A DNA stretch of 6,024 nucleotides, taken from assembly GCA_003527165.1 (NCBI GenBank), contig DPSI01000585.1:1-6024 (forward strand), written 5' to 3'. Under the pieces are notes generated by a model. It was not told the origin of the DNA. It saw nothing but the letters and a program-made list of their open reading frames with translations, and made no database searches. This document shows, in pieces, positions 643-4,841 of the stretch. A program made the position numbers and the translations under genes. Each line of letters begins with the position of its first letter. The first letter of the stretch is position 1. Source of the DNA: Pseudomonas sp. (lineage in GTDB: Bacteria > Pseudomonadota > Gammaproteobacteria > Pseudomonadales > Pseudomonadaceae).

Positions 643-2943
643 TCAGGCCACCCGGTCCTGATGCGCGGCGCGTAAATGCCGTGCGGCAGCCACCATACTC
701 ACCAGGGCCGCTTCGGTTTCCGGCCAACCGCGTGTCTTCAGACCGCAATCAGGATTGACCCAGAGCCGCTCGACCGGAATCCGCTCGCTGGCCTTCTCAA
801 GCAACTGCACCATCTCTTGTGCGTCCGGCACCCGCGGCGAATGAATGTCATAGACGCCTGGCCCAATGTCGTTGGGATAGTCGAAAGCGCGGAAGGCTTC
901 GAGCAGTTCCATCTGCGAACGTGAGGTCTCGATGGTGATGACGTCGGCATCCATCGCGGCGATCGATTCGATCACGTCGTTGAATTCGCTGTAGCACATA
1001 TGCGTATGGATCTGCGTTTCGTCCCGTACGCCGCTGGCGCACAGGCGGAAGGCCTCCACCGCCCAGTCCAGATAGCCCTGCCATTGCGCACGGCGCAACG
1101 GCAGACCCTCGCGGAACGCAGCCTCGTCGATCTGCACGATCCTGACGCCCGCTGCCTCCAGATCGCGGACCTCATCGCGAATCGCCAGCGCGAGCTGCCG
1201 CGCCTGCTGCTCGCGGCTGATATCGTCGCGGGGGAATGACCACATCAGCATGGTCACCGGGCCAGTCAACATGCCTTTGATGATTTTGCTGGTCTGCTGC
1301 TGCGCGTAGCGAATCCACTCCACCGTCATTGGCCCCGGGCGGCTCAGATCGCCGTAGATGACCGCGGGTTTGACACAACGCGAGCCATAACTCTGCACCC
1401 AGCCGAAACGGGTGAAAGCGTAGCCGTCGAGCTGCTCGGCAAAATACTCGACCATGTCGTTGCGCTCGGCCTCGCCATGCACCAGCACATCCAGGCCCAA
1501 CCGTTCCTGCACCGCCACTGCATGACGGATCTCCGCCTGCATCGCCTCGGTGTACTCAGCCAGCGCCAGTTTGCCCTGTCTGAACGCTTGGCGCGCCAGG
1601 CGAATGGCCGGCGTTTGCGGAAACGAGCCAATGGTGGTGGTTGGAAATGCCGGCAGATTCAGCCGTGCACGCTGCTTTTCGATCCGCTCGGCAAAGGGCG
1701 ACGAGCGCTGACTATCCTGTGTCTCGATCGCGGCCAGGCGCGCCTGCACGTCCGGCTTGTGAATACGCGGCGATTGCGCGCGACTGGCCTGGACCGCACG
1801 GCTGTGTTGCAGCGTGGCTTGTACCTGAGCATCTTCAGGGGCGTTCACCGCACGTGCCAGAACCGCCACTTCGGCGCATTTCTGCACGGCGAACGCGAGC
1901 CAGCTCTTGAGCTCGGCGTCCAACTGATCTTCACGCCGCAGATCCACCGGGGCATGCAGCAACGAACAGGAAGGTGCAACCCACAGTCGCTCGCCGAGTC
2001 GCTCGGCAGCATGGCGCAGCACATCCAGTGCCTTGTCCAGGTCGCAGCGCCAGACGTTGCGACCGTTGACCAGACCGAGCGAGAGAACCTTGTAAGTCGG
2101 CAGGCGATCAAGAATCACCGGATACTGATCCGGCGCGCGCACCAGGTCGATGTGCAGACCATCCACCGGCAGCGCAGCAGCCAGCCCCAGATTGTCTTCA
2201 AGGCCCCCAAAATAAGTCGCGATCAGCTTTTTCAACGGCGCACGCTGCAACAGGTTATAAGCCCGTTCGAAGGCGTTCTTCCAGTCCTGTGGCAGGTCCA
2301 GCACCAGAATCGGCTCATCGATTTGCACCCACTCGACACCCTGCGCGGCCAAACGCTCAAGCACCTCGCCGTAGACCGGCAGCAGCCGTTCGAGCAGCTC
2401 CAGCTTGTCGAAGGCTTCGCCCTTGGCCTTGCCTTGCCAGAGGTAGGTCAGCGGACCGATCTAGACCGGCTTGATTGCGTGGCCCAGCGCCTGCGCTTCT
2501 TCGACTTCCTCGAACAACTGCATCCAGGACAGTCCGAACTGCTGGTCCGCCGTGAATTCAGGCACCAGGTAGTGGTAGTTGGTATCGAACCACTTGGTCA
2601 TTTCCTGCGCCTGAGTGCCGCCGCAGCAGCTATGGGTGACGCCACGCGCCATGGCGAACAAGGTGTCCAACGTCGGTACGCCATCGGCTGGACGAAACCG
2701 CTCAGGGACCACACCGACCATCAACGAATGCGTCAGCACCTGGTCGTACCAGGCGAAGTCGCCGACCGGCAACAGTTCGATTCCCGCCTCCGCCTGCAAT
2801 TGCCAGTGGACTGCACGCAGCTCGCGGCCTACGCGGCGCAGCTCACCCTCGCTCAGGTCGCCCTTCCAGAACGCCTCGAGCGCCTTCTTCAGCTCGCGGT
2901 CGGCGCCGATGCGCGGAAAACCCAGGGAATGAACGACAGCCAT
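643..2943 (-). pseudogene. metE: Cobalamin-independent methionine synthase MetE, interrupted by an in-frame amber codon
   Basis: MetE (5-methyltetrahydropteroyltriglutamate-homocysteine methyltransferase) transfers a methyl group directly from methyl-tetrahydrofolate to homocysteine in the cytoplasm, the B12-independent last step of methionine synthesis. Reading runs from ATG 2943-2941 ([20 protein letters not shown]) to TGA at 645-643, 766 codons before the stop, against 753 residues in E. coli. Codon 161 (2463-2461) is TAG; before it the frame ends AIKPV and after it continues [15 protein letters not shown] without a shift. Both barrels are otherwise complete. The C-terminal zinc ligands are all present: His648 and Cys650 in HTHMC, Glu672 in TIETSRS, and Cys733 in [11 protein letters not shown], each offset by exactly seven from E. 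coli His641, Cys643, Glu665 and Cys726. A GGAGAG ribosome site lies 5 bases before the ATG. As written, the product is a 160-residue fragment of the N-terminal barrel. Internal restart, for instance at the GTG at 2364, would lack about 190 N-terminal residues and is unlikely to work. A sequencing error or suppression is the alternative. Confidence 0.92.
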
Positions 2944-3914: not shown

Positions 3915-4841
3915 ATGCTGGAAATCCGTCACCTGAAAACGCTTCATGCACTGCGCGAAACAGATAGCCTCGTCGAAGCGGCCGAACGCCTACACCTGAC
4001 CCAGTCGGCGCTGTCGCATCAGTTCAAAGAACTGGAAGAGCGCCTGGGCCTTCAGCTCTTCGTGCGCAAAACTCGTCCGGTGCGCTTCACCAGCGCCGGT
4101 TTGCGCCTGCTACAACTGGCGGACAGCCTGCTGCCGCAGCTACGTGGTGCCGAACGAGACCTGGCCAGGCTGGCCGGAGGCACTGCCGGACGCCTACACA
4201 TGGCTATCGAGTGCCACAGTTGTTTTCAGTGGCTGATGCCGACCATCGACCAGTTTCGCGACGCCTGGCCAGAAGTCGAACTCGATCTCGCTTCGGGTTT
4301 CTCGTTCGCCCCGCTGCCGGCGTTGGCCCGCGGTGACCTGGATCTGGTGGTGACGTCCGATCCGATCGAAATGCCCGGTATCACCTATGTTCCGCTGTTC
4401 ACTTACGAAGCGCTGCTCGCGGTTGCCAACCAGCACCCATTGGCAACCCGACCTTATGTACGCGCCGAAGACCTGACCGGCGAAACCCTGATCACTTATC
4501 CGGTGGAACGTGACCGATTGGACATATTCACACGGTTCCTCGAGCCGGAGGATGTCGAGCCGGCGCAGGTCCGCACTTCGGAACTCACGGTGATGATGAT
4601 GCAATTGGTAGCCTCGGGCCGCGGCGTCTGTTGTGTGCCGAACTGGGCCCTGCACGAATACAGCACGCGCGGCTATGTCACGGCCAAGCGCCTGGGTGAA
4701 AAAGGCCTGTTCGCGACCCTGTTCGCCGGCATTCGCGCCGACATGCTGGATTCACCGTTCATGCGTGATTTCCTGCTGACTGCAAAGGACACCTCCTTTG
4801 CCACGCTCGAAGGCGTCAGCGCAGCACCGAAGGCGAGATAG
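3915..4841 (+). CDS. metR: LysR-family transcriptional regulator MetR of methionine biosynthesis
   Basis: The 308-residue protein reads through as MetR (E. coli 317 residues). The N-terminal winged helix-turn-helix occupies about residues 1-60: it opens LEIRHLKTLHALRETDSLVE, then TQSALSHQFKELEERLG containing the recognition helix, then LFVRKTRPVRFTSAG. A linker helix follows to about residue 90. The C-terminal periplasmic-binding-like effector domain carries AIECHSCFQWLMP (97-109), nearly identical to the E. coli MetR segment, then DLDLVVTSDP and LITYPVERDRLDIFTRFL. These distinguish it from generic LysR proteins. MetR uses homocysteine as co-effector and activates metE and other methionine genes. 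AGGAAG at 3901-3906 sits 8 bases before the ATG. In enterobacteria metR is directly divergent from metE, whereas here the exoD-like gene lies between. Its stop directly abuts the stop of the next, opposite-strand gene. Confidence 0.94.
   Translation: MLEIRHLKTLHALRETDSLVEAAERLHLTQSALSHQFKELEERLGLQLFVRKTRPVRFTSAGLRLLQLADSLLPQLRGAERDLARLAGGTAGRLHMAIECHSCFQWLMPTIDQFRDAWPEVELDLASGFSFAPLPALARGDLDLVVTSDPIEMPGITYVPLFTYEALLAVANQHPLATRPYVRAEDLTGETLITYPVERDRLDIFTRFLEPEDVEPAQVRTSELTVMMMQLVASGRGVCCVPNWALHEYSTRGYVTAKRLGEKGLFATLFAGIRADMLDSPFMRDFLLTAKDTSFATLEGVSAAPKAR

Follow-up and report, generated by a model that had tools for sequence, protein, structure and literature searches.

A lone in-frame amber codon in an otherwise intact metE of a draft Pseudomonas genome

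Results

Gene content of the window and position of the amber codon

The window analyzed here (6,024 nucleotides) is the whole of contig C274 of a Pseudomonas draft genome (G000; 3.40 Mb in 611 contigs, 71.58% complete, 0.56% contamination). Its completeness and fragmentation suggest that the draft is metagenome-derived. From left to right, the window carries a ybaK-type deacylase gene, metE, an ExoD-family gene, a metR-like gene and a FemAB-like gene, with metE divided as follows:

Left edge, minus strand: ybaK-type deacylase gene, running off the end of the contig
643..2460, minus strand: remainder of metE, with the second half of the N-terminal domain (PF08267, positions 155-311) and the catalytic domain (PF01717, 1-323 of 324); NF003556, 955.8 bits
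2461..2463, minus strand: in-frame TAG at metE codon 161, from reading of the frame; Leu, Val or Ile in 138 of 138 relative loci
2464..2943, minus strand: metE codons 1-160, first half of the N-terminal domain (PF08267, positions 3-153, 211.7 bits; NF003556, positions 2-151)
Between metE and the metR-like gene, plus strand: ExoD-family gene
3915..4841, plus strand: metR-like gene for a LysR-type regulator, intact and ending in TAG; best match NF011950 MetR (293.3 bits, cut-off 382); 96% identity to P0242, a protein named MetR
Rightmost, minus strand: FemAB-like gene

The metE frame starts at 2943, ends at 643 and comprises 766 codons, with a lone in-frame TAG at codon 161 (2463-2461). It is open on both sides of this stop, over 160 codons upstream and over 605 sense codons plus the terminal stop downstream (606 codons, 2460-643). 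The preliminary description of an amber codon in an otherwise intact metE was therefore exact in coordinates, frame and context, and its statement that the gene shows no other decay was borne out by the 765 remaining codons, which run without interruption. The metR-like gene, judging by its family, likely regulates metE. A sub-threshold Rfam match to the ASpks antisense RNA (30.4 of 52 bits, E 0.011) overlaps the metE stop on the plus strand (2422-2499) and is probably due to chance.

The interrupted frame retains the domains and zinc ligands of MetE

Both pieces of the frame match the same N-terminal domain (PF08267) in register, and the stop interrupts this domain midway, between profile positions 153 and 155. 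The catalytic domain (PF01717) is matched almost end to end by the downstream piece, and the two pieces combined thus carry the PF08267 and PF01717 pair expected of a functional MetE; the uninterrupted frame that is likewise expected is broken by the TAG. At the level of whole-protein families, the cut-off of TIGR01371 (929.95 bits) was reached by neither piece (183.9 and 889.9 bits), and that of NF003556 (541 bits) was passed by the second. A His-Cys-Glu-Cys set, which we take to be the zinc ligands of MetE, is found at H648, C650, E672 and C733 (numbered on the intact protein P0121 and identical in the window frame). Its spacing of 2-22-61 is that of the E. coli enzyme and of a functional MetE, in line with the earlier observation that, on this assignment, all four ligands are kept at the expected distances. 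Solved MetE relatives found in a search with P0121 include 3ppf and 1u1h.

Near-identical intact proteins exist

A database search with the downstream metE piece retrieved two intact proteins nearly identical to the window frame. P0121 (766 aa), encoded on two contigs of which the longest spans 235,588 bases, agrees with the window frame at 765 of 766 residues and carries Leu at position 161, and P0122 differs at residue 161 and three more residues. On the strength of this sequence identity, the hosts of both proteins are presumably of the same species as the window. Intact alleles of this kind are expected of a recent nonsense allele. When the metR-like gene was searched to see whether the neighbors of P0121 are also identical, the best match among those listed reached 98%. 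The two leading readings of the preliminary description, a recent nonsense change or a sequence error in an otherwise intact gene, both stay in place, as P0121 and P0122 fit either one.

The stop is private to the window

Codon 161 was read by tblastn at 140 of 140 loci, two of which are the window itself and 138 of which are relatives, with some genomes represented twice. The relatives encode Leu (109), Val (25) or Ile (4) and TAG in none, which confirms the observation as more than chance. A peptide-pattern search, in which 108 of 110 loci were scorable (the window and 107 relatives; the pattern did not hit L008 and L039), gave Leu at 78, Val at 25 and Ile at 4. The genus was also surveyed using 56 genomes including that of the window. 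A metE match was obtained in 53, and an interior TAG in none of the 52 others, with the TAG codons of G020 and G022 set aside as gene ends (frames of 761 or 765 codons, matched to residue 762 or 763); both encode Leu at codon 161 (loci L008 and L175 by tblastn, L014 by peptide pattern). Conservation of the TAG in relatives, which would have spoken for a functional codon, thus found no support, and, with Leu161 in P0121, its private occurrence indicates that codon 161 is not a conserved recoding site. Similarly, no twin of the 160-residue fragment was seen, as the best full-length identity was 88% among the 120 matches listed of 2629.

Other irregular metE genes were encountered in the survey. 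The gene of G064 is broken in several ways and carries a TGA, and its metH lies in five pieces; since both genes are damaged, this genome was set aside as an error-rich assembly. Its metE, metH and cobN-like genes are each split into several frames in an assembly of five contigs. In G068, metE is split in two pieces over two contigs, and G067 (73% complete) has a match to neither metE nor metH. At a Pseudomonas locus (L086), a stop is located at the extreme C-terminus. The nearest named metE relatives of the window belong to Stutzerimonas, and one locus from the genus of G000 (L002) has a metE identical to that of Stutzerimonas stutzeri SD25545 (L031). A plasmid search returned 10 records, with metE pieces of 72-75% identity or matches of about 50 bases.

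Three neighboring bases differ at codons 160-161

A point beyond the preliminary description is that the window differs from its three nearest relatives at codons 160-161 by three neighboring bases and not one, reading GTC TAG versus GTG CTG. Over the whole gene, 290-294 of 2298 bases differ in these comparisons, mostly at third positions, and 3 to 5 other runs of at least three differences occur. GTG is replaced by GTC at 4 of 30-32 codons elsewhere in metE, and CTG by TTG at 7-9 of 48-56. As both replacements are common in the gene, no exotic event is needed, and two ordinary synonymous differences plus one nonsense change would suffice to produce GTC TAG. For the same reason, a one-base deletion compensated by an insertion, considered at this site along with a complex mutation, was set aside as unnecessary, as was the latter.

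The draft shows no excess of interrupted genes

To place the stop in the context of its assembly, 80 contigs of G000 were examined, of which 10 consist entirely of N and 23 more contain N runs that may be scaffold gaps. The window is free of N, and the metE TAG is located more than 2 kb from either contig end. A codon-usage (coding-potential) scan for interrupted genes with 60-codon flanks was applied to the 70 readable contigs of these 80 (of 611 in total). Under strict settings, which caught ~21% of sites inside long frames, the scan flagged the metE site of the window and no candidate in 479,860 non-N bases of these contigs; in the single-contig relative G070, one candidate emerged over 800,000 bases. 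Under loose settings, which caught ~61%, 8 candidates were found in G000 and 16 in G070, corresponding to about equal rates. By this measure of limited power, the similarity of the two genomes indicates that G000 is not error-rich. One of the eight loose hits (L214) appears to lie antisense to frames that we take to be pil-like, and at the other seven, inspected by eye, a gene appears to end and the next to begin in the same frame.

When the 80 contigs and the window were compared gene by gene with 800 kb of G070, 24 frames proved comparable, three of them with an interior stop. One of these stops precedes the apparent start of a gene that is presumably folE-like, one affected frame is antisense to a frame of higher GC3, and the last is in L226. 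The latter (contig C61, 2206-3906, minus strand) is a long, arginine-rich frame with one stop and 80% identity to a G070 frame, and may be spurious. In G070 itself, an in-frame TGA (L257, position 1749, minus strand) interrupts a coding frame, the flanks of which we take to resemble a conjugation ATPase.

metH is general in the genus and metE is dispensable

The alternative methionine synthase gene, metH, was matched in all 54 near-complete genomes of the genus. Three of these are without a complete metE, as no match was found in G059 and G060 and only residues 1-404 were matched in G015, and all three carry a full-length metH; metE is therefore dispensable in the genus. In G000, the first half of metH is present on contig C489, where it is open over 671 codons up to the contig end; the remainder of the gene had no match in the 71.6% complete assembly. 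The proposal that MetH would serve as a fallback accordingly holds for the genus, and for this strain about half of the gene is assembled.

Own synthesis of B12, also raised at the outset, has found no support so far. Neither cobN (in the 72%-complete assembly) nor a cobalamin riboswitch (150 of 162 candidates scored) was found in G000, and its nearest relatives (G023, G070 and G075) carry only sub-cut-off relatives of cobN. Following this reasoning, a metE null might be costly here. Within the genus, cobN exceeded the cut-off in 11 of 56 genomes. It did so in two of the three genomes lacking a complete metE (G059 and G015, not G060) versus 9 of 51 other near-complete genomes, with G064 and G068 counted among the latter, a difference that is not significant (Fisher P = 0.10).

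Discussion

The metE stop is likely an ordinary event, namely a private nonsense codon that reflects either a recent loss-of-function allele or a consensus error, with no new mechanism involved. As the best explanation, to which we assign about an even chance, codon 161 underwent a nonsense mutation, very recently and at the level of the strain, which would leave an inactive fragment of 160 residues and dependence on MetH. One substitution in a leucine codon would have created the TAG, which would be present in the living cell and not merely in the consensus; the metE fragments would be inactive, and MetH with B12, either made or imported, would cover methionine synthesis. The observations that bear on this course of events are the TAG itself, the open frame around it, its absence from 138 relative loci, an intact and otherwise identical protein, and a metH that is open as far as it is assembled. 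Were the TAG real, the strain would need MetH, perhaps with imported B12.

A serious alternative, whose probability we place somewhat below even, is that the TAG stems from miscalled bases or misassembly in the consensus of a fragmented draft and that the organism has an intact metE. At 71.6% completeness in 611 contigs, local consensus errors are plausible, all the more with N runs (possible scaffold gaps) in 23 of 80 contigs. The near-identical intact proteins sit on far longer contigs, and the TAG has been seen in one assembly only among the 138 relative loci, the 52 other genomes and the fragment matches listed. Exactly at the stop, moreover, three adjacent bases depart from the nearest relatives, although those adjoining the nonsense change are common synonymous differences. 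Against an error, the site is remote from the contig ends in an N-free window, interrupted genes show no excess over the 480 kb of this assembly that were scanned, and the 765 other codons translate to the residues of P0121, which indicates that the contig is not error-rich. In 3.4 Mb a single error could easily occur, and a single real nonsense allele equally well. We lean slightly towards a real, very recent nonsense allele over a consensus error, because interrupted genes are not in excess in the 480 kb scanned (at limited power) and because three near-complete genomes with metH have metE missing or shortened.

Two further explanations would preserve MetE activity, and both appear very improbable. 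Amber suppression, read-through or reassignment, named as a third possibility in the preliminary description, would yield full-length MetE and agrees with a frame that stays open past the stop without decay; a suppressor tRNA could also be missing from the incomplete assembly. However, no CTA anticodon occurs among the 23 tRNA genes identified (ARAGORN typing; assembly 71.6% complete), an interior TAG is absent from the examined relatives, including the 52 other genomes of the genus in which metE was matched, and the metR-like gene of the same window terminates in TAG, which speaks against general reassignment. Similarly improbable is a split gene whose two pieces cooperate after translation restarts downstream (e.g., at GTG 2364). 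The downstream piece does hold the whole catalytic domain, but the stop cuts through the N-terminal domain, the first in-frame ATG, GTG or TTG follows 32 codons after it, and none of the 138 relative loci shares it.

Returning to a recent nonsense allele, its bolder form is that the window captures a Stutzerimonas just after loss of its B12-independent methionine synthase, in which, with no cobN found, one base change turned the strain into a B12-dependent member of its community; we consider this unlikely. A real allele would capture metE loss at its first step, in a genus whose 54 near-complete genomes all match metH and of which three have metE missing or shortened, and would offer a small case, open to testing, of how dependence on B12 begins. 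An error would instead be a warning against calling auxotrophies from draft genomes.

Literature searches on metE loss, metH and cobalamin returned no title on this allele among the matches listed. According to PMC10378866, methionine synthesis would require B12 in five of the 12 isolates described there, as these are without MetE; the Stutzerimonas isolate of that study is outside these five. The known pattern of metE loss in B12 users that keep metH is recognizable in G059, G060 and G015, where metE is absent or truncated and metH present; the window differs from this pattern as an unconfirmed case in which one stop interrupts an otherwise undamaged gene. Overall, when compared to ordinary MetE, the cobalamin-independent methionine synthase (TIGR01371 / PRK05222, PF08267 + PF01717), the window frame shares both domains, the ligand spacing and the length, and differs by one in-frame TAG at codon 161.
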